Shown here piece by piece: positions 29,225 through 43,058 of a DNA stretch of 64,000 nucleotides. Source of the stretch: a virus. A model generated the notes under the pieces. The model saw only the letters and a list, made by a program, of their open reading frames with translations, did no database searches and was not told where the DNA came from. The position numbers and the translations under genes are program-made. Each line of letters opens with the position of its first letter. The stretch's first letter is position 1. Where the stretch lies: positions 88,720-152,719 of IMG/VR virus record IMGVR_UViG_3300033183_000354, one strand, 5' to 3'.

Positions 29225-32200
29225 ATGGCAACCGTACTAACTAAATCTACTTTTTCTAATACATATAAAGATGATTTTGCTGATAGTGACAATTATTACA
29301 GAATCCTTTTTAATAGTGGTAAAGCACTGCAAGCGAGAGAGCTTACGCAGATGCAAACTATTATTCAAAAACAAATTGAAAGATTTGGGAGTAATATTTT
29401 TAAAGAAGGTGGAGTCGTAAAACCTGGCGGCACAAACCTTAATCAAAAGTATGAATACATCAAATTAAATACTACGTCTAATACACTACCTACTGATACT
29501 TCAACTCTTATTGGTACACTCTTTACGGGTCAAACTTCTGGTGTTATCGCAAAAGTAATTCAAGTTGTATCTGCTACAGGTTCTGATCCAGCTACACTTT
29601 ACGTACAATATACTAATACCGCATCCTCAACGGCTGATACCTCTTCACCTATTCGAATGGAAGCAGGCGAAGATATTAATAATGGTTCAATTACTCTTAC
29701 TGTACAAACGACAAATACAACAGCAAATAGAGCAGTCGGTACTGGTACTATTGTTTCAATTGGTTCAGGCATTTATTATACAAAAGGTTTTTTTGTATAT
29801 ACTGAAAATCAATCGAAAATTGTTTCTAAATATTCTGATGCCCCTAACGTTGATGTTGGATTTAAGATCGTAGAAGATGTCGTCACTATTGCTGATAATA
29901 CCGCATTATACGATAATCAAGGATCGACTCCTAATTTATCTTCCCCAGGCGCTGATAGATATCGTATTCGTCTTCTTATCTCTACTCGTGATGAAATTGA
30001 TTCTGATCAAAATTTTATTCATATCGCTACTGTTAAAAATGGCGTAATCTTTGCAACAGCAAAAGAAACTGATGCATATGATATTCCTAATGATATGATT
30101 GCTCAGAGGATCTTTGAAAACTCTGGTAACTATATTGTTAATCCATTTACCGTTAAATTCAATGAAGATTCAGATAATACAAAACTACAGCTTGAAGTAA
30201 GTGATGGTGTAGCTGTTGTTGACGGCTATAGAGCTGAAAGATATTTCCCAACGGTTATTCGACTTGATAAGCCAACTACTACTATTACCAAAAATAACGA
30301 AGTTGTAGCAGCTGACTTTGGTAACTATGTTATTGTAAATCCAGCAAATGCTTCTGGTTTACCAAACTTAAATACGTGGGAACAGCTTAATCTACGTAGC
30401 GCTACTAATTACGGTGGATCTACGATTGGTACTGCAAGAGTAAAAGCTGTAACCGAAGATGGTGCAAACTATCGTTACCATCTTTTTGATATTCAAATGA
30501 ATTCTGGTCAAGCTTTTAGAAATGTTAAAAGTGTTGGTACAAGTATAACGAGTTATTTTAATCCAACTCTTGAAAATAGCAAAGCTGTACTAAAGGATCC
30601 TCTTAAGAATTCATCTCTCTTTGCGCTTCCTATTTCTCGACCTTCTTCAATTAGTGATATTTCTTTGGTAGTACAAAGAAGATTTGCTACTACTACGAAT
30701 GCAAGTGGTGAAGCATCACTGACTCTTACTGCTACTGGTGAAACTTTCTCTAATGTTGGTGACTGGATTTATGCTAATGCTGATAGCGACTTATATACTG
30801 GTTCAGTAAGTGTAAGTGGCGCAGGTACAGCAGCTGCTAGCATTAGCGGTCTTCCTGTAAGTTCTTCTAATCTCGAGATCTTAGCTTATGTTAATAAAGC
30901 TGCTGCCACTCCAAGATCTAAAACATTAACAACTCGTACAATAAACGCTACTGTTGATTCTGATGGCAATGGATTTAAGTATATTAATCTTGGTAAAGCC
31001 GATATCTATGATGTATCAGAAATTGTGAATGCTGCCGATAGTTCAATAAGCTATGCTAATCGATTTGTTCTTGATAATGGACAAAGAGATAATTATTATG
31101 GACTAGGTAAACTAGTATTAAAAGGTGGAAACGCGGCGCCAAGTGGCAATGTTTATGCAAGCTTTAGACATTTTGCACATGGTACTTCAGGCGATTTCTT
31201 TGCTGTTAACTCTTATACTGGTCAAGTTACATATAAAAACATTCCGTCTTATAGATTAAATGATGGAACTACGATTAATTTAAGAGATTACTTAGACTTT
31301 AGATCAGTACAAGATGCAAATGGCGCATATTCAAGTACTGCGACTGGGGCTCGAGTCAATCAACTTCCACAGCCTACTGATACTATTCAGTTCGATGCGG
31401 CTTATTATCTTCCAGTTGCTGGTAAGTTGACAATTGACACAGAAGGCATGCTAGATTTTGTCAAAGGCTCTCCTGAATTAATTCCACGTCCACCTGAAAA
31501 GGCTGATCAATCTCTTGGTCTTTATAATATTTGGATGGGCGGCAATACTCTTGATGATTCTGATGTTCTTTTACAGCGCATTGAACATAAACGCTTTACA
31601 ATGGCTGACATTGGTCAACTTGAGACACGAATCGATAAGCTTGAAGAATTAGCTTCTCTTAGCATGCTTGAAATGGATACGAAGAATTTCCAAGTTCTTG
31701 ACTCTGCTGGTCTTGATAGAACAAAATCAGGTTTCTTTGTAGATAACTTCTCTACACATATTTTATCTGACGTTGAAAATCCAGACTATTCGGCTGCACT
31801 TGATCCTTCTCGTCAAGAGTTAAGACCTGCATTTAGTGAAGATAATATTAAATTAATATATGATTCGGCTTCTTCGACCAATACTATTAAGAAGGGTGAT
31901 AATGTTTATATCAAGTATGACGAAGCAACTTATATTAATCAAAGTCTTGCAAGTCAGGCCATTCAAATTAACCCATTCTCTGTAGTTGTTCATGAAGGTA
32001 TCATAACGCTTTCTCCAGCATCAGATGAATGGAGAGATACCAAGCGTAAAGCTGCTAAAACTATTGATGGTGGTACTAAACTTAATACACAGCAAGCTTA
32101 TATGTGGAATAACTGGGAATGGAACTGGGGAGGTCGACCTCTTGATCAGTTGAGTGTTGGTGCGACTACTAACGTTAAGAAGACTTCTACTTCTACACAA

Positions 32201-33349
32201 AATATTACTAATGTGAATAAAGTGGTAAGTGAAGAAACAGTAAGAGAATTAGTCGCAGACCGAGTCATCGATGTTGCGGTTATTCCTTTCATGAGATCAC
32301 GTAAGATCTACTTTAAAGCACAAGGCTTAAGACCGAATTCGAAAGTATTTGCTTTCTTCGATAATGTATCGGTAGCAGATTGGGTAAGATCAGAATCGTT
32401 TGCTTATTATTCAGATGATACTACAGATTATGGTAACCTATATGCTAATGCTACTGCACATCCTGATGGAGCGACTACACTTCAAACTGATGCAAATGGT
32501 GAAGTTTCTGGCACATTCTTTATTCCAAATTCTTCTACTCGTCGTTTTAGAACAGGTAGAAAAGAATTTAAGATCCTTGACATTAGTGTCAATAAAGATA
32601 ATCAAGCTCTTGCTGTAGCACGAGCATCATATACAAGTAAAGGGTATTTAGATACGTATCAGAAGGAATTCTTATCTACACGTATTCTTAATGTCGAAGG
32701 GATTAAAACTGTTACCAATAAAGCTCAAAAGTACAATTATGGCGGTGGCGGTGAAGGCGGCGGCGGAGGTTTCCAAGGTGGTATAGGAACTACTATTGGA
32801 AATCATACCTCGGTTCCTGGAAAGAATAATACATTTAGTAATGATCCATATGGCATTGGCCATTCAGGTGAATTTGGCGGAGGTACCGGTACCGGCTGTT
32901 TCTTAGCCGGTACAATGATTACTATGGAAGATGGTACTCAAAAGGCAGTTGAAACAATTGAACTTGGAGAAAATGTTGCAATTGGCGGGTTTGTATTTGC
33001 TAAAGGTTCATTCCTCGTTGACGATCTATATGACTATAAAGGCATTAAAGTATCTGGCTCTCATATGGTACATGAAGATGGAGTATGGGTCAGAGTCGAA
33101 GATTCGAAGTATGGTGTTCCAGAGCATGAAGAAACTGTGGTGGTATATAACTTCGGTACTGAAAATAGAAGATTACTTATCGAAGGTATTACATTTACAG
33201 ATTACTTCGAAGCTGATGGTAAAGCATTTCTTGAAGCAATGGGTGATGCATACTTTGATAAGTGGAGAGAAATCTCAGAAGATTATCATAATGAAATTGG
33301 AGTAAAAATTGTTAATGATGAAAGCCAGAAAATGGAACTTAGACAATGA
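29225..33349 (+). CDS. DUF4815 baseplate/fibre protein with C-terminal Hint domain
   Basis: 1374 residues. The N-terminus has the DUF4815 signature (SDNYYRILFNSGKALQAREL then TQMQTIIQKQIERFG). Long beta-rich body with DYLDFRSVQD, FTMADIGQLETRIDKLEELA and IPFMRSRKIYFKAQGLRPNS. Near residue 1165 it has the block STRILNVEGIKTVTNKAQ, after which related proteins usually run on into an AQSF-type domain. Here a Gly-rich linker (about 1172-1224) leads to Cys1225 and a Hint fold: CFLAGTMITMEDGTQKAVET, then SGSH (His1280) and EETVVVYNF. There is no His-Asn at the end, so splicing is not expected; thioester-type self-processing or linkage is possible. The next gene overlaps it by 35 bases. Confidence 0.8.
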   Translation: MATVLTKSTFSNTYKDDFADSDNYYRILFNSGKALQARELTQMQTIIQKQIERFGSNIFKEGGVVKPGGTNLNQKYEYIKLNTTSNTLPTDTSTLIGTLFTGQTSGVIAKVIQVVSATGSDPATLYVQYTNTASSTADTSSPIRMEAGEDINNGSITLTVQTTNTTANRAVGTGTIVSIGSGIYYTKGFFVYTENQSKIVSKYSDAPNVDVGFKIVEDVVTIADNTALYDNQGSTPNLSSPGADRYRIRLLISTRDEIDSDQNFIHIATVKNGVIFATAKETDAYDIPNDMIAQRIFENSGNYIVNPFTVKFNEDSDNTKLQLEVSDGVAVVDGYRAERYFPTVIRLDKPTTTITKNNEVVAADFGNYVIVNPANASGLPNLNTWEQLNLRSATNYGGSTIGTARVKAVTEDGANYRYHLFDIQMNSGQAFRNVKSVGTSITSYFNPTLENSKAVLKDPLKNSSLFALPISRPSSISDISLVVQRRFATTTNASGEASLTLTATGETFSNVGDWIYANADSDLYTGSVSVSGAGTAAASISGLPVSSSNLEILAYVNKAAATPRSKTLTTRTINATVDSDGNGFKYINLGKADIYDVSEIVNAADSSISYANRFVLDNGQRDNYYGLGKLVLKGGNAAPSGNVYASFRHFAHGTSGDFFAVNSYTGQVTYKNIPSYRLNDGTTINLRDYLDFRSVQDANGAYSSTATGARVNQLPQPTDTIQFDAAYYLPVAGKLTIDTEGMLDFVKGSPELIPRPPEKADQSLGLYNIWMGGNTLDDSDVLLQRIEHKRFTMADIGQLETRIDKLEELASLSMLEMDTKNFQVLDSAGLDRTKSGFFVDNFSTHILSDVENPDYSAALDPSRQELRPAFSEDNIKLIYDSASSTNTIKKGDNVYIKYDEATYINQSLASQAIQINPFSVVVHEGIITLSPASDEWRDTKRKAAKTIDGGTKLNTQQAYMWNNWEWNWGGRPLDQLSVGATTNVKKTSTSTQNITNVNKVVSEETVRELVADRVIDVAVIPFMRSRKIYFKAQGLRPNSKVFAFFDNVSVADWVRSESFAYYSDDTTDYGNLYANATAHPDGATTLQTDANGEVSGTFFIPNSSTRRFRTGRKEFKILDISVNKDNQALAVARASYTSKGYLDTYQKEFLSTRILNVEGIKTVTNKAQKYNYGGGGEGGGGGFQGGIGTTIGNHTSVPGKNNTFSNDPYGIGHSGEFGGGTGTGCFLAGTMITMEDGTQKAVETIELGENVAIGGFVFAKGSFLVDDLYDYKGIKVSGSHMVHEDGVWVRVEDSKYGVPEHEETVVVYNFGTENRRLLIEGITFTDYFEADGKAFLEAMGDAYFDKWREISEDYHNEIGVKIVNDESQKMELRQ

Positions 33350-33779
33350 TTATGAGACACTAAAAAAGTGGTGGGAAGATTGGGAATTTGGTGTAGTTCC
33401 ACTTGAGGTTTTACCTCCACTTGGTATCATGATTGAGAATAATGAAGGTCCAATTTGTGCGGCCGGATTATATGTAGGCACTGGTACAAAGTTTTGTATT
33501 ATGGAATGGCTTATTAAAGATAAGCATAGTTCATTGAAAGAATCACATAGAGCGATTCAACTTTGTATTAATGAAGTAATAAAATTAGCTAAAGATAACG
33601 ATTGTACGCTAATGTATACGGTAACAGGTGATGATTCATTGATGAAGAGATATACACGCTTACACGGAATGAAACTAACAGAGAATAATGTGAGAACGTT
33701 TATTAAAGATTTAAATAATTCTTATACTGATTTTGAGTTTGTACAAGATGATGAACAGTGGGAAAAGGATCAAGAGTAG
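33315..33779 (+). CDS. GNAT-like acetyltransferase
   Basis: 154 residues from ATG 33315 (33318 is also possible). Blocks KWNLDNDYETLKKWWEDWEF, PPLGIMIENNEGPICAAGLY and IMEWLIKDKHSSLKESHRA follow the beta/alpha order of GNAT acetyltransferases; the usual Q/RxxGxG/A acetyl-CoA loop is poorly kept, so activity is uncertain. Similar proteins lie among structural genes of marine T4-like phages. Its position between the Hint-bearing protein and the separately encoded continuation (33788) is striking and may mean it modifies one of these virion proteins. Confidence 0.6.
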   Translation: MMKARKWNLDNDYETLKKWWEDWEFGVVPLEVLPPLGIMIENNEGPICAAGLYVGTGTKFCIMEWLIKDKHSSLKESHRAIQLCINEVIKLAKDNDCTLMYTVTGDDSLMKRYTRLHGMKLTENNVRTFIKDLNNSYTDFEFVQDDEQWEKDQE

Positions 33780-33787
33780 AGGTATAA

Positions 33788-35356
33788 ATGGCAACTTCAC
33801 TTGGATATAAATTAAACAAAAATCCAATCGCTCAATCATTTTTTGTTGATACGACGAGTGGGATTTTTGCTACGAAGATTGATGTCTTCTTTGCTCAAAG
33901 GGATACGTCTTTCCCTGTTACTCTGCAATTAAGGCCGATGGTGAATGGATATCCTTCGTCGCAAACGATTATCCCTGGATCAACAGTAGTAATTCCTGGC
34001 AGTTCTATTAACGTATCAGCCGATGCGTCATCTGCTACTAGTTTTACATTCCCTGAACCAATCTATTTGAAAGGTTTAACAGATTATGCTATTGTAATTA
34101 CAGTAAATTCTCCAGATTACAAGATTTATATTGCAGAAACTAATCAATTCCTTCTTGGCTCGACAGAAAAAAGAGTGGATCGTCAACCGACTCTTGGAAG
34201 TCTTTTCTATTCTCAAAACTCAGTTACATTTACGGCCGCTCAAAATCAAGATTTGACATTTAAATTATATCAAGCTAAATTTAAACATAATTCAGCAGCT
34301 GCAGTCTTTCATAATACTGATGTACCTCAGTCACTTTTGGCAAATAACCCAATTCAAACTACTGCAGGCAGTTCTACAGTAAAAGTATCACATTATAATC
34401 ATGGCCTATACGTTGGTAATACAGTTACAATTGCAGGCGTTGATTCTGATGGCGTAGGTGGTCTTACTTATTCACAGCTAACTGGTAATAAAACAGTAAC
34501 TGCAATTGATTATAGTGGATTTGAATTCAGTGCAGGAGCAACTGCAGATTCAGATGTTACTGGTGGTGGAATAAACGTAAAAACGACAAAAAATATTCCA
34601 TATTCAATTATGTATCCTCATATGCAAACTTTACAGCCATTCTCAACAGCTATAGAAGCGGTTGCTCGAGGTACGACTGGTAAATCATTTGCTGGTACTG
34701 AGACGGCTTTCCAAAAGAGTACTGATTATAGCGTTATTAAATTAAATCAAAATAACGAAGCAAATGAAATGTACACGATTGCTAATACTGCAACAGAAAC
34801 TGCAGAATTAGGCGCAGGAGTCAGATCATTTGATATGGCTGTTAATATGTTTAGTATTGACTCAAACGTATCTCCTATTCTCGATTTGCAGAGAAGTTCT
34901 CTTAGCGGTATTTCATATGTAATTGATAAACAAGATTCTGCTGCTACTGCAGGATTTAATGTGCCTCTTAACTTCGTAAATGAAACTTCTGCGAATGGTG
35001 GCAGTTCTCCTTCGAAACATATTACAAAGACTATTACGCTAGTCGAAGATGCAGTTGGCATTAAAGTGTTATTTGCTGCTAATAGACCTTCGACTTCTGA
35101 TATCCAACTTTATTATAGAGTTTCAAGTGGCGATGAACTAATTACTGAAAAGACATGGGCATTAGCGACCGAAGAAACAAGCAATCCAGCAGATGAAAAT
35201 AGAACAATCTTTAGAGAATATCAATACTTGATCGGTGGTCAAGGTGGTAATCTTCCAGCATTTACTCAAATGCAATTGAAGTTTGTATTTAGATCTACCA
35301 ATAATGCACGTGTTCCTGTAATGAAAGATTTGAGAGTAATCGCGCTGAGCGTATAA
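33788..35356 (+). CDS. Virion protein equivalent to the C-terminal part of DUF4815 proteins
   Basis: 522 residues. The start NKNPIAQSFFVDTTSGIFAT then KIDVFFAQRDTSFPVTLQLR and PMVNGYPSSQTIIPGS matches the AQ(S/T)F region that, as I recall, directly continues the DUF4815 polypeptide in many cyanophages. Here it has its own ATG after the Hint domain and the GNAT gene. The middle contains a small beta module (VSHYNHGLYVGNTVTIAGVD) and the end VFRSTNNARVPVMKDLRVIA. It probably assembles with the 1374-residue protein in the baseplate or proximal fibre. Confidence 0.75.
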   Translation: MATSLGYKLNKNPIAQSFFVDTTSGIFATKIDVFFAQRDTSFPVTLQLRPMVNGYPSSQTIIPGSTVVIPGSSINVSADASSATSFTFPEPIYLKGLTDYAIVITVNSPDYKIYIAETNQFLLGSTEKRVDRQPTLGSLFYSQNSVTFTAAQNQDLTFKLYQAKFKHNSAAAVFHNTDVPQSLLANNPIQTTAGSSTVKVSHYNHGLYVGNTVTIAGVDSDGVGGLTYSQLTGNKTVTAIDYSGFEFSAGATADSDVTGGGINVKTTKNIPYSIMYPHMQTLQPFSTAIEAVARGTTGKSFAGTETAFQKSTDYSVIKLNQNNEANEMYTIANTATETAELGAGVRSFDMAVNMFSIDSNVSPILDLQRSSLSGISYVIDKQDSAATAGFNVPLNFVNETSANGGSSPSKHITKTITLVEDAVGIKVLFAANRPSTSDIQLYYRVSSGDELITEKTWALATEETSNPADENRTIFREYQYLIGGQGGNLPAFTQMQLKFVFRSTNNARVPVMKDLRVIALSV

Positions 35357-37393: not shown

Positions 37394-38323
37394 ATGGCAG
37401 TCAGAAGGCCACTTTATTATGATTCAGGCAATCTTCGTGAAATGTCTGATTCGATGCTCACAGCTATTCGACAGCGCTGTGTATATCTCTATGGTGGATC
37501 ACCAGCAGTAGATCTTTCTGTAGTAGCAAGCAGTGGTTCTCTTGCATCAATAAGTGATACCAGAAAATCTGCTGGTGCATATTCTACTCGAGTTGATGAA
37601 TATCCAACAGAAGCAGAGACTGCGGAACCTGGTACAGTTACAGTCACTTATGATAAAATTAATTCTTCTACAGATTCTGTAAGTGCCATCACTGATACTA
37701 ATAATAAGTTATATCCTATCTATAATAGTAGTGGTAATCTTAGAGCTATGACTGCTACGGATATTTTCGACACATTCATTACGCAGGCAATTGATCTATT
37801 AGTTGATGGCAATGATAGAGACGGTACTTACCGAATTTATACTGGAACTTCTCTATCAAATCATACTCTTATTTCTGCTACTCCGGTTTTCTCTGATACA
37901 AGAGCTAACACAGGAGCATATACTGCTGGTGGAATTCCAGAAGTAGAGGATCAGCCTACGACCATTACTAATTACTATCTGATGAGAACGAATCAAGGTA
38001 CAGCATATGGTACTCCATCAATAACAGCACCGCTTTATATCCGTACTGATAATAATTTACAAACATATACGAGTGGATCATTTGATACAATTTTACAAAA
38101 TGAAATGAGATATCATACAGCAAATACTGTAGGATCAAGAATTACATATAGTATTAATGGAACCGGCAATAACCGAGGATCTGCAATGGTAAATACGATT
38201 CTTAATGGTGGCGGAAATTATCAAACACGGTTTGTTAATGATAATGATTATCGTGCACAAGAATTCCCGGACGGTACGGCTGTTACGGCTAATACATATT
38301 ATTTAAGGATTACGAGGTCTTAA
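37394..38323 (+). CDS. Fibre-associated structural protein
   Basis: 309 residues. N-terminus AVRRPLYYDSGNLREMSDSM with a second copy-like motif PIYNSSGNLRAMTATDIFDT at about residue 113, so the first part seems built of two related units. The rest is Thr/Asn/Tyr-rich and beta (TITNYYLMRTNQGTAYG, TVGSRITYSINGTGN). Conserved in marine T4-like phages as a virion protein with unknown place. It follows the coiled-coil fibre with only two bases between, so they probably work together. Confidence 0.65.
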   Translation: MAVRRPLYYDSGNLREMSDSMLTAIRQRCVYLYGGSPAVDLSVVASSGSLASISDTRKSAGAYSTRVDEYPTEAETAEPGTVTVTYDKINSSTDSVSAITDTNNKLYPIYNSSGNLRAMTATDIFDTFITQAIDLLVDGNDRDGTYRIYTGTSLSNHTLISATPVFSDTRANTGAYTAGGIPEVEDQPTTITNYYLMRTNQGTAYGTPSITAPLYIRTDNNLQTYTSGSFDTILQNEMRYHTANTVGSRITYSINGTGNNRGSAMVNTILNGGGNYQTRFVNDNDYRAQEFPDGTAVTANTYYLRITRS

Positions 38324-38324
38324 A

Positions 38325-38807
38325 ATGGAAGGACATGAGTTTTTAACTGCGCATTTTTGTAATAACGAGAGAACGACCATCGAAGTCTATTGGGCAACCG
38401 AAGACGAGACTCGTGTTACTTATGTTGAGGCGAAAGATGGAGATCCTCAATACGAAGAAGTATTAAAGCATGTATCTATCGATCAACTTCATGAGAACAC
38501 TTATAAACATATTCGCGAACAAAATCAATTATTTGAAGAACAAGTAATCGCGATCGCTAAAGAACGTGGGATGATTTATGATATTGATTCTATTAATACC
38601 GATATCTACAAAGCTATTGGATCAGCAATCTTTGCGCCATTTGATCCTGAGAAAGACAAAGAAAAACTTTTTATGTACAAGTTACAATTATTTGAAGTAG
38701 AATCAATTAAAAATTCAAAAGATAAAGAACTAAAAGCACAATTAAGAAAAGCTAAGAATCTATTGGAATCTACCAAAATTGCTATTCAGATTGTAGAAAA
38801 TAATTAG
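38325..38807 (+). CDS. Conserved protein following fibre genes
   Basis: 160 residues, acidic, with beta start (EGHEFLTAHFCNNERTTIEV) and a helical C-terminal half (DKEKLFMYKLQLFEVESIKN, then ELKAQLRKAKNLLESTKIA). This layout is seen in marine T4-like phages next to fibre genes, perhaps as an assembly factor; no role has been shown that I can name. Its last 26 bases overlap the end of the convergent glycosyltransferase gene. Confidence 0.65.
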   Translation: MEGHEFLTAHFCNNERTTIEVYWATEDETRVTYVEAKDGDPQYEEVLKHVSIDQLHENTYKHIREQNQLFEEQVIAIAKERGMIYDIDSINTDIYKAIGSAIFAPFDPEKDKEKLFMYKLQLFEVESIKNSKDKELKAQLRKAKNLLESTKIAIQIVENN

Positions 38808-39354
38808 ACCACCAACCATTTATATTCATTAGTTCATGTGATTGATTAAAGAGGCAAACATTAACGTTTGTCTCTTTTTTATTAGTTTGAACTGATGCAT
38901 ACAATTCATCCTCAAACATTTTAGGTCTGTAAACTGCCCATAACCATTGATCGATCCCTCTATCATACTCTTTCATAAATTCTTTTGAATTAGATTCGAA
39001 AAATTTAAATATAGATGATCGATCTCCATACCAGGAAATTATACTTGAGTTAATTGGATTAGTTTTATAAAATCCTCCTTCAACTCTCCAATGAGCATGA
39101 CATACAGTTAAGTCTTTGCGAATAAATTTATTACAATCATCTTTGATTAAAACATCTAAATCAAAATATAAATTTTGGCCATCTCTAAACTTATCAAACA
39201 TTTGCAGTTTATCATATACACCTCCAAAGATAACCTCATCGATTACTTCAAATGAAGTATATTCAAGATTAGAATATTTGTCAATCATATACTTTAGATT
39301 TTCTGTATGCCATTGACTATACTTATTTCCAGTATTAACACAGATTAATCTCAT
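38782..39354 (-). CDS. Glycosyltransferase-like protein
   Basis: 190 residues from the ATG at 39354, which overlaps the previous stop (ATGA); the frame extending to 39471 lies within that gene. The N-terminus (MRLICVNTGNKYSQWHTENL) and the DxD motif in LYFDLDVLI (metal and sugar nucleotide binding) followed by GIDQWLWAVY fit GT-A fold glycosyltransferases. Last gene of the minus-strand cassette and very AT-rich. Substrate unknown. Confidence 0.7.
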   Translation of the reverse strand: MRLICVNTGNKYSQWHTENLKYMIDKYSNLEYTSFEVIDEVIFGGVYDKLQMFDKFRDGQNLYFDLDVLIKDDCNKFIRKDLTVCHAHWRVEGGFYKTNPINSSIISWYGDRSSIFKFFESNSKEFMKEYDRGIDQWLWAVYRPKMFEDELYASVQTNKKETNVNVCLFNQSHELMNINGWWSNYFLQSE

Positions 39355-40442
39355 TTGTGTATTGACCTCACTTGTTGTTTGTCGAATGATTTTTGTTGTG
39401 TGCTGCAATGTTTTTTGCAAACATAAATGGGGCTGTCTGATATGCTTTTTTGTAACTGACCGTTGAACCAAGAGTTTTCGATAATTTTATTTAAAGGTGT
39501 AAACTTTATATTATTATCAAGTCTCATTAAATTATATTGTTTTGCTATATCAGTTTCAAAAAATGTATCTTTTATTTGTTCATATATTATATGTTCTTTT
39601 ACACCAAAAAAACAACAAGGCCAAACTTGACCATCAAAATTAATATTTAAAGTATTATCAGCAGCCCATTTACATATTACCTTTTCTTCTATATCAATAT
39701 TGGTTTCTGAATAATGAGCTAAAAATGGATTTTCAAATTCTTTATCTGCCCATTCTAATATTTCTTCTTCACCATTTTCATTAAGATATGTGTATGGTTT
39801 ATAATTACCGTTTTCATCTAATCCGAATCTATCACTTTTAACATAGGTATGCCTTTGACTCCCGTATTTTTTAGCTAAATCACCAATTTCTTTTACATAA
39901 TCTTGATTATGTTTAAATACGATTGTTTGTGAATTAACAATCGATTTACCATTTTCACTAAATGCTAACATATTATCTAAGACTTTTTGGAGTTTCGTAT
40001 TTTTTCGATATTTACTATGCATCTCTTGATTTACACCATCAATATCAAAGCAAACTCTTAAATGTTTTCTTCTATGTTTATACGCTAAAGATCCAAAATT
40101 CCACCAAAAATCTTCATCTCTTATTGATCCATTGGTACAAATAGAAAGTATAGAATCATTCGGTAAAGATGAAAGTAAATAATCACTAATATCATAAATT
40201 TCAGGATTCATTATTGGATCTCCCCAACTAGGAGACATATGAATACTAATAACATTCTCTAATTGATCTTGAGGATAAGATAACATAACTTCTGGTAATG
40301 ACCAATGTATTAATGGAAGACTAGGTATCTTTTTTAAACCTCCATTGATATTATCAGTTCTACTACATTGAGGGCATTTAGCATTACAATGTGTTGTAAT
40401 ATCTATTGTAAGTTTTAAATTTTTATTATACCATCTATGCAT
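39351..40442 (-). CDS. Radical SAM protein with SPASM/twitch-type domain
   Basis: 363 residues from the ATG at 40442. The 4Fe-4S cluster motif CNAKCPQC (Cys19, 23, 26) follows a typical first strand (LKLTIDITTHC). The GDP-like loop SPSWGDPIMNPEIYD and the strands SICTNGS and VCFDIDGVNQEMHSKYRKN fit the barrel. The C-terminal part has ICKWAADNTLNINFDGQVWP, CCFFG and a final CKKHC, cysteines for an auxiliary cluster as in SPASM/twitch proteins. In this cassette with glycosyltransferases it may modify a sugar or a peptide; the substrate is not known. Confidence 0.85.
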   Translation of the reverse strand: MHRWYNKNLKLTIDITTHCNAKCPQCSRTDNINGGLKKIPSLPLIHWSLPEVMLSYPQDQLENVISIHMSPSWGDPIMNPEIYDISDYLLSSLPNDSILSICTNGSIRDEDFWWNFGSLAYKHRRKHLRVCFDIDGVNQEMHSKYRKNTKLQKVLDNMLAFSENGKSIVNSQTIVFKHNQDYVKEIGDLAKKYGSQRHTYVKSDRFGLDENGNYKPYTYLNENGEEEILEWADKEFENPFLAHYSETNIDIEEKVICKWAADNTLNINFDGQVWPCCFFGVKEHIIYEQIKDTFFETDIAKQYNLMRLDNNIKFTPLNKIIENSWFNGQLQKSISDSPIYVCKKHCSTQQKSFDKQQVRSIHK

Positions 40443-41208
40443 TAAAACTAATACCGAAATCTTTATTAACGTGGTGCAAAATATAAGCTGCTGCAGAAGG
40501 ATCCGGAGAAGATTGATCCAATATAAAATTCCATTGAATACCAATATTTGTATATGGTACGTCAAATTTTTCTATTAAATATGAAATATAAACTTCATTA
40601 TTATGAATCCAACTTTTATTTATTTCTTCAGGATATAGGTTGTCTAGACTAGCCTCTTCAAACTTATTAAAACAATAATCAAATCGTTCACTAAATTTTA
40701 ACTTATCAATGGAATTTTTATTTGCAGCAATAACTCCAGTATTAAGCATCTCATCATTACCATTTATATCATCAAGTAAAAGCATAGCATTCTTAGCGCA
40801 TGTTTTACTATACATATCCATCTTATGCCAAGAATCGTTTTTTAATCTAGAATGCATTTGGTCTGAAGTTGGTTTTTTAACTATACCATATGCGCAAATT
40901 TTATTCAAATCAAAAGAATCAAATATATTCTTTGTTGTCTGAGGTACTATATCAAAATCAAAGTAAACTACTTCATCATAATCATTGACGAGTTTTTCAA
41001 GTAGAAAGATTTTTTCAAATTGAATTTTATCATAGTCTGAAACAGAAGTTGTAAATAATTCATAGTCAGCGCCACAATTTTTTGCATAGGATTTCTGCGA
41101 TTCTAAGATTTGATCTTTGAATTTGATAAACTGATTACGCTTGAAATCGGGGACAGAACTATGTTCTTCCACTTGATCGGTATATAAACTATAGATAATT
41201 CTTTTCAT
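40435..41208 (-). CDS. Glycosyltransferase (GT-A, DxD type)
   Basis: 257 residues. N-terminus MKRIIYSLYTDQVEEHSSVP, DxD in VVYFDFDIVPQT (about residues 97-108) and MLNTGVIAANKNSI further on are typical of family 8-like glycosyltransferases; the C-terminus has HHVNKDFG. Paralogous to the next upstream gene (same IIYSLY start, DFDxVP and xNKDFG end). Overlaps the radical SAM gene by 8 bases and the upstream glycosyltransferase by 20. Confidence 0.8.
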   Translation of the reverse strand: MKRIIYSLYTDQVEEHSSVPDFKRNQFIKFKDQILESQKSYAKNCGADYELFTTSVSDYDKIQFEKIFLLEKLVNDYDEVVYFDFDIVPQTTKNIFDSFDLNKICAYGIVKKPTSDQMHSRLKNDSWHKMDMYSKTCAKNAMLLLDDINGNDEMLNTGVIAANKNSIDKLKFSERFDYCFNKFEEASLDNLYPEEINKSWIHNNEVYISYLIEKFDVPYTNIGIQWNFILDQSSPDPSAAAYILHHVNKDFGISFNA

Positions 41209-42088
41209 ACCATTCCTTTACATAACCAAAATCTTTATTAATCACATGAACTAAATTAATATCATGTGGTATGTAATTCCATTTATCTAAAACATGATGC
41301 CATTGATTCGTTAAATCTTGCCTTTGAACTTGATTCATTGACATCTTATAACTCCAGATAGTTTCGTTATCCCAACCAAACATATACCTGATATGATTTG
41401 GCCACATACTAAACTCGTCGTTCTTTAGTTCACTCATCATATTAATGACATCATCAAAATCGCCCCAATAATCTAACTTTTCTAATTGTTCTTTCGAAAC
41501 TCCGACGATACCAGTATTATAAACGTCATTCTTTCCAGACATATCTGATTCAATAAGCATTGCTCGAGCGTTCCAGTATTTTGCTGTCGGCGATCTATTC
41601 GATAACATGCTCATGCTATTAAAATTTTGTTCACTGATGACCATCTTATGCAATGATGTATCAATTGAGTTTCTATTCGCCATAATAGTGATACCATTTT
41701 TTGGTATATCCCAATGGTCAAAAAAATTGATCTTTGTTAATGGAACTACATCAAAGTCGAGATATAATATCTCGTCATATTTTTTAGCCAGTTCATACAT
41801 CAAGTGAATCTTATAAAAGTTCACAATATTGTATGCAGTAATTATAGGATACTTTTCATTAAACCATTCTTTATATTTGATGTAATTATCATCATATTCA
41901 AATAGTTTATACTCAACACCAATACTATCAGCATACTTCTGCTGTACTTCTTTTAACCATGAATAGTATGTTCTTAATTGTCTTTTAGTCTCAAGTGTTT
42001 TAGGTTCTTCTTTACCATAGAACGGAGGCTGATAATCTAGTTCATTTTCAGGGATATCGATATAAAGACTATAAATAATTCTTGCCAT
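41189..42088 (-). CDS. Glycosyltransferase (GT-A, DxD type), paralogue
   Basis: 299 residues. ARIIYSLYIDIPENELDYQ start, YDEILYLDFDVVPLTK with the DxD motif, NRNSIDTSLHKMVISEQNF, NDVYNTGIVGVSKEQLEK and VHVINKDFGYV at the end. Same build as the downstream enzyme, so the two arose by duplication and may add successive sugars. First gene of the minus-strand set; its start codon overlaps the divergent methyltransferase start in a CATG palindrome. Confidence 0.8.
   Translation of the reverse strand: MARIIYSLYIDIPENELDYQPPFYGKEEPKTLETKRQLRTYYSWLKEVQQKYADSIGVEYKLFEYDDNYIKYKEWFNEKYPIITAYNIVNFYKIHLMYELAKKYDEILYLDFDVVPLTKINFFDHWDIPKNGITIMANRNSIDTSLHKMVISEQNFNSMSMLSNRSPTAKYWNARAMLIESDMSGKNDVYNTGIVGVSKEQLEKLDYWGDFDDVINMMSELKNDEFSMWPNHIRYMFGWDNETIWSYKMSMNQVQRQDLTNQWHHVLDKWNYIPHDINLVHVINKDFGYVKEWYEKNYL
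42070..42077 (+). promoter_or_regulatory. T4-type late promoter inside the opposite gene
   Basis: Exact TATAAATA on the plus strand, within the first codons of the minus-strand glycosyltransferase, nine bases before the ATG at 42087. T4 geometry predicts a leader of only about four bases. Confidence 0.55.
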
Positions 42089-42638
42089 GATATTAGAATA
42101 CGCTATTGAAAAAATACAAACTTGTGATGATATTGAAGTAGCAAAATCAATCGCTAATTCAGTTAATCAAAATCAGTTAAAAAACAAATACTGGTTAATC
42201 GAGCATTTACAACCTTACTTAGATATGTATATCGATCCTAAGATCGTAGTTGCTGCAGGTTGGCATGGCCTTACTGCTCATATGTTAGATAATAATGTTA
42301 TGTCATTTGATATGGATCCAGTTTGTAAAGAAGTTCGCCTCTTTCCAAACGTGAATTATAAAACTTCGAAGATAGAAGACTTTGATCCTTCTCAGTACGA
42401 TATCATCATATGCACATCATGCGAGCATATTACCGATGATGTTATCAATAATTTTATCGCTAAGAAAAATCCAACTAGTATCTGCCTCCTCCAAAGCAAT
42501 AACTATTATTATATACCAGAACACGTCAATTGTAAACAAAATTGTGACGAATTTGCTGAAAAAATTAACCTTAAGATACTTGATAAATTTACACTTGAAT
42601 GCGATAAGTACGATCGTTTTATGATAATAGGAATCTAA
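42087..42638 (+). CDS. SAM-dependent methyltransferase-like protein
   Basis: 183 residues. IVVAAGWHGLTAHMLDNN followed by SFDMDPVCKEV fits motif I and the acidic loop II of class I methyltransferases, and YDIIICTSCEHI fits motif IV. The GxGxG signature is changed to AGWHG, so substrate or activity may differ. Divergent from the glycosyltransferase cassette and probably part of it. A small-molecule or glycan methyl transfer is inferred only. Confidence 0.65.
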   Translation: MILEYAIEKIQTCDDIEVAKSIANSVNQNQLKNKYWLIEHLQPYLDMYIDPKIVVAAGWHGLTAHMLDNNVMSFDMDPVCKEVRLFPNVNYKTSKIEDFDPSQYDIIICTSCEHITDDVINNFIAKKNPTSICLLQSNNYYYIPEHVNCKQNCDEFAEKINLKILDKFTLECDKYDRFMIIGI

Positions 42639-42642
42639 TTAT

Positions 42643-42650
42643 TATAAATA
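42643..42650 (+). promoter_or_regulatory. T4-type late promoter of the distal fibre locus
   Basis: Exact TATAAATA right after the methyltransferase stop. Start near 42656 gives a leader of about 49 bases that contains a UUCG hairpin and GGAAGG before the ATG at 42705. Confidence 0.7.
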
Positions 42651-42704: not shown

Positions 42705-43058
42705 ATGGCCCAATACGAAGAATTTACCATCGATCAAGGAGCGGACGTCGCCTTTGAACTTCATCTAACAGATGTTAACGGTGCAGCCAAAAATCTGAAT
42801 GGCTATACTGTGTCTGCTAAAATGAAGAAGAATTATAACAGCGACAGCGCCGATACTCACGACTTTACTAGTATAGTCGCTTCTCCATATACAGATGGCA
42901 TTGTCACATTGTCGCTCACAAATACTCAGACTGATGTTCTCAAGGCTGGAAGATACGTATATGACGTAGAGCTTTCATATCTTGATAGCAGTGATAACAC
43001 CGTGATTGAGAGGATACTTGAAGGCCGCATTCAAGTAACACCATCGGTGACGAAATGA
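42705..43058 (+). CDS. Beta-sandwich structural protein (BppU-N-like)
   Basis: 117 residues with the pattern FTIDQGADVAFELHLTDVNG, NLNGYTVSAKMKKNYNSDS, LSLTNTQTDVLKAGRYVYD. This is an all-beta domain seen at the start of phage fibre or baseplate appendage proteins (BppU N-terminal type) and in stand-alone form in cyanophages. Probably an adaptor binding a fibre to the baseplate. First gene of the distal fibre operon behind a late promoter. Confidence 0.65.
   Translation: MAQYEEFTIDQGADVAFELHLTDVNGAAKNLNGYTVSAKMKKNYNSDSADTHDFTSIVASPYTDGIVTLSLTNTQTDVLKAGRYVYDVELSYLDSSDNTVIERILEGRIQVTPSVTK

Follow-up and report, generated by a model that had tools for sequence, protein, structure and literature searches.

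The window analyzed here (64,000 nucleotides, positions 88720-152719 of the 152,719-base virus record IMGVR_UViG_3300033183_000354) belongs to a T4-like myovirus, as judged from its baseplate and fibre genes. By its baseplate wedge protein, the closest named relative is Phage C48C1 (43% identity), followed by the Methylophilales phages Melnitz and the Pelagibacter phages HTVC008M and Mosig. Embedded in the fibre region is a cassette (38782-42638) that encodes three putative glycosyltransferases (GTS, GTB, and GTA), a radical S-adenosylmethionine (SAM) protein (rSAM), and a methyltransferase (MT), flanked by the small gene FSP (38325-38807) and by FIB2 (42705-43058). These labels, like FIB, GTX, and OGX below, are our own, and L-numbers refer to the viral stretches compared. 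A first-pass annotation of the window had described a mainly antisense cassette on an AT-richer island, and both features hold. MT is the only one of the five genes on the plus strand, GTS, rSAM, GTB, and GTA all being antisense, and the cassette has a GC content of 0.295 versus 0.373 for the remaining window; 5 of 602 sliding 3.8-kb stretches are equally low, all overlapping the cassette (lowest elsewhere, 0.321). Improved start assignments place GTS at 39354 rather than 39471 and rSAM at about 40442 rather than 40565, and with these revisions each of the two genes runs a few bases into its upstream neighbour. GTA and MT form a divergent pair whose start codons have CATG in common. A megablast search of the region against phages gave no match. 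Chance open reading frames (ORFs) can be ruled out because the cassette genes are conserved across many phage contigs.

The annotation of three DxD glycosyltransferases, two of them paralogous, stands once the motifs are read. GTS (38782-39354, minus strand), GTB (40435-41208, minus strand), and GTA (41189-42088, minus strand) carry the contexts YFDLD, YFDFD, and YLDFD, respectively, and GTA and GTB are 29% identical with an invariant DxD. Lys49, Asp65, and Asp67 of GTS are invariant in 24 aligned sequences, as is the DxD of GTB in 14. GTB aligns with the Pfam GT8 family (PF01501) at an E value of 8e-4 and 19.4 bits, below the gathering score of 24.3, and neither GTA nor GTS matches a Pfam family. 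The GTS family profile finds glycogenin, a GT8 enzyme, weakly (E 0.0055), and it aligns with the GTA/GTB profiles across the DxD region (hhalign E 5e-5, probability 67); the GTA/GTB profile has no match in the PDB at 0.1. With the DxD present and the PF01501 gathering score not reached, the three proteins are best called GT8-like, a prediction from motif and weak profile similarity.

The protein encoded at 39351-40442 (minus strand) is a radical SAM enzyme with a SPASM/twitch-like C-terminus, as first annotated, by both family and conserved cysteines. It matches PF04055 with an E value of 2e-6 (28.3 bits in one scan and 29.7 in another, against a cut-off of 29.5) and the SPASM family PF13186 with 22.2 bits, just above the cut-off of 21.5. 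All 30 aligned sequences have the three core cysteines (CX3CX2C), and 29 have five conserved C-terminal ones, with one gap. A full SPASM domain has seven auxiliary cysteines; we use the label "SPASM/twitch-like" because five, not seven, are conserved. A PDB profile search with the alignment returned nothing at 0.01.

MT (42087-42638, plus strand) had been annotated as methyltransferase-like, and its predicted fold makes it a class I SAM-dependent (Rossmann) methyltransferase. The protein alone has no meaningful Pfam match, and 16 of 50 family members match Methyltransf_25. The structural model (pLDDT 96.8) gives a Foldseek E value of 8e-9 and superposes on VIA with a Z score of 17.2 and an rmsd of 2.7 over 162 residues. 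The motif TSCEH is invariant across the 50 sequences. The fold gives no pointer to the substrate, with many families tied.

Upstream of the cassette, FIB (37394-38323, plus strand) encodes a protein of 309 residues that has 489 relatives among the matched viral stretches and belongs to no PHROG family; its place in the fibre region suggests a fibre protein, and it is our candidate glycan acceptor. FSP (38325-38807, plus strand), which directly follows, has no convincing family match and may be a partner of the fibre or of the glycosyltransferases, judging from its position and neighbours. Among 141 FSPs distinct in exact sequence, with near-duplicates kept, 107 have GTA, GTB, or GTS within four genes on the 3′ side, a further 30 have only GTX, a DxD protein confirmed by no family (described below), and 4 have neither. 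The FSP model is confident (pLDDT 94.6, pTM 0.61) and has no fold match in the PDB or BFVD at E 0.001; weak rows such as "tail assembly chaperone" fell below significance, and we dismissed them as evidence. FIB2 (42705-43058, plus strand), which bounds the island on the other side, is a fibre-assembly-like protein (phrog_1084, E 2e-23; phrog_3304, "L-shaped tail fiber protein assembly", E 1e-16) matched in 114 named phage records.

To compare neighbourhoods, viral contigs were sampled from four starting genes, MT, FIB, GTA, and FIB2; each list of 80 loci holds the best-scoring of 489 FIB, 357 GTA, at least 575 FIB2, and at least 555 MT relatives and leans towards the window. Once loci sharing an identical FIB end or reaching less than 4.5 kb downstream had been removed, 39 distinct FIB sites were left, Mosig included. 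All 39 have both FSP and a glycosyltransferase within 10 kb; GTA or GTB is found at 38, MT at 37, GTS at 34, and an rSAM-profile match, a label that also picks up other radical SAM proteins at low scores, at 31. Starting from GTA, FIB or FSP is present in 69 of 80 loci and in 46 of the 48 that span at least 15 kb; in the two exceptions (L211 and L213), GTA and GTB lie beside FIB2. Gene order and strand differ among the phages, and the set is nonetheless kept together.

The FIB2 sample, drawn from a less biased entry point, provides the contrast between sites with and without FIB or FSP. We tabulated those of its 80 loci that extend 9 kb or more upstream, 58 in all, with relatedness ignored in the p values. 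GTA, GTB, or GTS occurs in 13 of 13 loci with FIB versus 9 of 45 without it (p 1.6e-7). With GTX loci left out, FSP and a glycosyltransferase occur together in 12 loci, FSP alone in none, a glycosyltransferase alone in 4, and neither in 13 (p 6e-5); when GTX is counted as a glycosyltransferase, the corresponding numbers are 41, 0, 4, and 13. Among the 22 loci with less than 9 kb upstream, on the latter count, 15 have both, 6 have neither, and 1 has a glycosyltransferase only. In nine of the 13 loci with neither (L339, L343, L346, L350, L352, L357, L391, L407, and L415), VrlC and other genes run into FIB2 with no cassette; these nine are empty sites. In the other four (L345, L349, L353, and L359), VrlC is not among the nine genes inspected.

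The stretch between FIB and FIB2 shows which genes form the core. A glycosyltransferase is present in 43 of 44 such intervals, the exception (L099) joining a second FIB copy to FIB2 with no cassette. FSP is found in 42, GTS in 41, MT in 38, GTA or GTB in 35, and an rSAM match in 30, and the smallest interval (L182) holds FSP, GTA, and GTB only. Because they are absent from part of the intervals, the radical SAM and MT genes look like extras on a glycosyltransferase core. Distance correlations, from pairs that are not independent and with some control pairs equally high, are strongest for FSP-GTA (rho 0.63) and GTS-GTA (0.52), followed by FIB-GTA (0.40), FIB-FSP (0.37), and FIB-GTS (0.32); FIB against its upstream neighbour FIB0, a control, gives 0.28, below the values among FIB, FSP, GTS, and GTA. 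Some phages carry a second FIB-FSP pair (L099 and L104, on one contig, and L101), which in L101 is followed by neck-like genes, as read by eye, with no cassette.

MT relatives have a wider distribution. Of the 80 MT-sampled loci, 13 have FIB or FSP plus glycosyltransferases, 4 have glycosyltransferases only, and 63 have none of FIB, FSP, or the glycosyltransferases and at least one rSAM-profile match, many of them being multi-radical-SAM clusters. Relatives in L033, L035, L057, L087, and others sit in such clusters without fibre genes, and L033 has 11 rSAM-profile ORFs within 16 kb.

A search for the same gene set elsewhere, which the first-pass annotation had proposed for both phages and bacterial glycan clusters, found it in many phage contigs. 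On the bacterial side, GTA has 357 relatives in viral contigs versus 3 in genome_contigs, which cover 84,980 species with one genome apiece and were searched with a single peptide pattern that misses distant bacterial relatives. All three contigs (L173, L174, and L175, from GTDB metagenome bins) also hold FIB, FSP, GTS, and MT and so appear to be phage DNA. In tblastn searches of 50,697 phage records, FIB, MT, GTA, and GTS each match Mosig alone, and FSP matches Mosig and C48C1. Pelagibacter phage Mosig EXVC030M, like the window, has homologues of MT (27% identity), GTA (46%, Mosig_00091), GTS (40%), FSP (34%), and FIB (49%, Mosig_00097) in one island (Mosig_00090-00097). Unlike the window, Mosig has a larger island with annotated MoaA-like genes, a carbamoyltransferase, an aminotransferase, and a nitroreductase; GTA matched it at a single place, and rSAM gave no match to it. 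HTVC008M, whose recorded host strain, HTCC1062, is also that of Mosig, has no match for FIB, FSP, GTA, GTS, or MT, and its VrlC and FIB2 are separated by just three ORFs, all annotated as hypothetical and one of them 626 residues long. The only named phages matched by the window's rSAM protein are Campylobacter phages CP220 and F379 (29% identity over 73% of the query, E 8e-13), which infect a different host and have no match for GTA, GTS, or MT.

An island of this kind is already known. Pelagimyophages carry, after VrlC, a large variable island termed the host recognition cluster, with fibres, glycosyltransferases (GT8 being the commonest type), and radical SAM cassettes, and its enzymes have been proposed to modify the host O-chain (Zaragoza-Solas et al. 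2020, PMC7029224). At its far end, the published cluster is bounded by the neck gene gp14. The window's island fits this cluster, lying downstream of VrlC in the structural region and combining fibre genes with GT8-type glycosyltransferases and radical SAM genes. In its accessible text, that paper treats the glycosyltransferases as lipopolysaccharide (LPS) genes and does not single out FIB, FSP, or a fibre-glycosyltransferase unit (PMC7029224), and within a limited literature collection no title or abstract opening treats such genes as a unit dedicated to fibres. What is new here is that the glycosyltransferases are tied to FIB and FSP. Glycans on phage particles have a precedent in mycobacteriophages, whose capsid and tail tube proteins carry them (Freeman 2023, as cited in PMC12619734); those phages have other hosts and the glycans sit on other proteins, and glycosylation is demonstrated there and suggested here by genes.

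Bacterial flagellin glycosylation islands offer an analogy, and only that: glycosyltransferases, a methyltransferase, and an aminotransferase lie beside the filament gene whose product they decorate. Some relatives of the cassette carry further sugar-modifying genes. The larger island of L172 has genes for a carbamoyltransferase (E 8e-65), a DegT aminotransferase (2e-81), an NAD-dependent epimerase (8e-26), and another radical SAM protein, and that of L012 also has an epimerase. The first-pass annotation had suggested synthesis of an unusual sugar or of a modified peptide; these genes and the similar Mosig annotations back the first part, and nothing specific favours the second. The islands contain few predicted membrane proteins. 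In a crude hydropathy count, at least two membrane spans are predicted for 5 of the 399 proteins in the FIB-FIB2 intervals, none of them in the window, and none of the five reads by eye like a flippase or polyprenyl transferase. Phage serotype-conversion (gtr) clusters combine a membrane flippase with a polyprenyl or membrane transferase. With so few membrane proteins, the acceptor is likely reached from the cytoplasm and would therefore be a protein or the LPS core. Two multi-span proteins, in L019 (9001-10272) and L212 (5173-5772), have openings that by eye resemble a TctA-type transporter and a fatty-acid desaturase.

With an intrinsic-terminator-like hairpin past FSP and a late-promoter-like box before FIB2, the cassette seems to be set apart from the surrounding fibre operon. 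The hairpin (38848-38877, plus strand; 12-bp stem followed by a T run, folding z-score -4.0) lies just past the FIB-FSP genes and is encoded inside the 3′ end of the antisense GTS. The box (42643-42650, plus strand) is an exact match to TATAAATA, a late-promoter element in T4-like phages. A second TATAAATA at 42070, just ahead of MT, overlaps the conserved first codons of GTA and may be due to chance. In 14 divergent loci, the window included, the 600 bases that precede the antisense genes contain no TATAAATA. In or near the cassette there are three 11/12 sigma-70-like sites on the minus strand, where 0.1 are expected per 4.7-kb shuffle; such a site precedes GTA in 3 of the 14 divergent loci, namely the window, L012, and L163, the last two belonging to a single contig.

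We propose that the cassette is the enzymatic half of a fibre-glycosylation island, a reading to which we give a probability of about 0.5. Fibre modification is the simplest explanation because the glycosyltransferase core follows one fibre-region gene and its small partner. The first-pass suggestion of fibre glycosylation is strengthened by the close linkage with FIB and FSP, and FIB is the presumed acceptor. FIB would be made together with FSP, which might present or chaperone it. Soluble GTA, GTB, and GTS would act next, using host nucleotide sugars in the cytoplasm to assemble a short glycan on FIB or a different fibre protein. MT and the radical SAM enzyme might modify the sugar, for example by O- or N-methylation, oxidation, or epimerization, and in some relatives the carbamoyltransferase, aminotransferase, and epimerase would add further groups. 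The decorated fibre may tune adsorption or protect the virion.

Several observations weigh against this proposal. FIB-FSP pairs lack a glycosyltransferase in the available stretch of L096, L098, L100, and L101, all with less than 4.5 kb downstream, and L383 has FIB and glycosyltransferases without FSP. The 41:0 count in the FIB2 sample relies on GTX as a glycosyltransferase; with GTA, GTB, and GTS only, all 58 loci divide into 18 with both FSP and a glycosyltransferase, 23 with FSP alone, 4 with a glycosyltransferase alone, and 13 with neither, which is not significant (p 0.23). FIB shows no co-inheritance with MT (rho 0.10) or rSAM (-0.07), and GTA-FIB0 (0.38) and FSP-P358 (0.52) correlate about as highly as the pairs with FIB. 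The linkage could also stem from joint transfer of genes that govern host range, in which case the enzymes would act on the receptor bound by that fibre. LPS-core transferases are among the GT8 enzymes, and they too act at the cytoplasmic face without membrane spans. Early expression, which would suit host modification, could follow from the sigma-70-like site in front of the antisense genes, although just 3 of the 14 divergent loci have one. Of 162 LPS-related proteins counted in pelagimyophages, 63 lie inside the island, so others lie elsewhere (PMC7029224).

The chief alternative, also raised in the first-pass annotation, is that during infection the enzymes add a decorated sugar to the LPS core or O-chain of the host and so block adsorption of other phages or keep progeny from binding debris. 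It is the published reading of the pelagimyophage GT8 genes (PMC7029224). GT8-like enzymes are typical of LPS core synthesis, sugar-decoration genes occur in two relatives (L172 and L012), and the 11/12 sigma-70-like site on the minus strand ahead of GTA would agree with it. Yet the enzymes stay beside one fibre-region gene in the loci examined, the GTA family reaches genome_contigs three times by its single peptide pattern and each time in a phage-like contig, and the crude span count revealed no recognizable membrane transferase or flippase. We consider this alternative less likely than fibre glycosylation, and it keeps some weight since altering the fibre may require a phage to alter the receptor too. 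Improbable is a modification of peptide in the manner of ribosomally synthesized and post-translationally modified peptides (RiPPs), in which the radical SAM enzyme would cross-link or epimerize residues of a fibre peptide and the glycosyltransferases would act on the product. SPASM-type enzymes often modify peptides, and the window's protein has weak profile similarity to the maturase models TIGR04317 and TIGR04321, but far under their cut-offs; the gene is moreover dispensable, with a profile match in 30 of 44 intervals, and falls short of the seven C-terminal cysteines of a full SPASM domain. That the glycosyltransferases act on modified phage bases in DNA hypermodification is very improbable, for although the same record holds a thymidylate-synthase-family match (G000:C1:34985-35614, L418; one internal stop) followed by a dCMP-deaminase-like ORF (by eye), those genes lie about 92 kb away and the cassette tracks the fibre region.

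Pelagimyophage glycosyltransferases have so far been read as modifiers of host LPS (PMC7029224). If fibres are decorated instead, phages of very abundant ocean bacteria would carry dedicated protein-glycosylation islands with unusual chemistry, including radical SAM reactions and carbamoylation, and such islands could set host range and particle stability. Since Mosig (with the island) and HTVC008M (without it) are both recorded from HTCC1062, the fibre-glycosylation proposal is directly testable.

A second arrangement associates FSP with another kind of fibre. In C48C1 (L336, 910-7936), a long protein with GNYxGxY repeats is followed by FSP, the DxD protein GTX, the 2-oxoglutarate-oxygenase-like protein OGX, and FIB2. 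This arrangement recurs in 43 loci, C48C1 included (in L336 and L338-L417), and in 40 of them the gene preceding FSP contains one or more G-x-Y-x-G-x-[YF] matches, with at least five in 34. Profiles of GTX and OGX gave no plausible match and no Pfam or PHROG family, and GTX did not align convincingly with the GTA/GTB or GTS profiles (E 0.17 and 0.12); GTX is called a putative glycosyltransferase from its DxD and OGX a putative oxygenase from invariant H, N, H, and R residues. The module may serve hydroxylation and glycosylation of the repeat fibre, and it would strengthen the fibre-modification reading if GTX proves to be a glycosyltransferase. We tentatively extend this to the possibility that FSP is the hallmark of a fibre-modification system general to marine T4-like phages, in which each fibre type would come with FSP and its own enzymes: glycosyltransferases, methyltransferase, radical SAM enzyme, and carbamoyl- or aminotransferase for FIB, and a DxD protein with an oxygenase-like protein for GNYxGxY fibres, the latter perhaps hydroxylating the repeats before glycosylation. 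In that case, the fibres of abundant ocean phages would bear glycans that are dedicated and swappable.

Farther upstream, VrlC is split into two ORFs in the window. The first (29225-33349) corresponds to residues 10-1454 of HTVC008M VrlC and the second (33788-35356) to residues 1475-2001, with E values of 6e-87 and 1e-64, and between them lies an ORF of 156 residues (33309-33779) that belongs to phrog_17252. A separate C-terminal VrlC ORF is seen in several relatives too.

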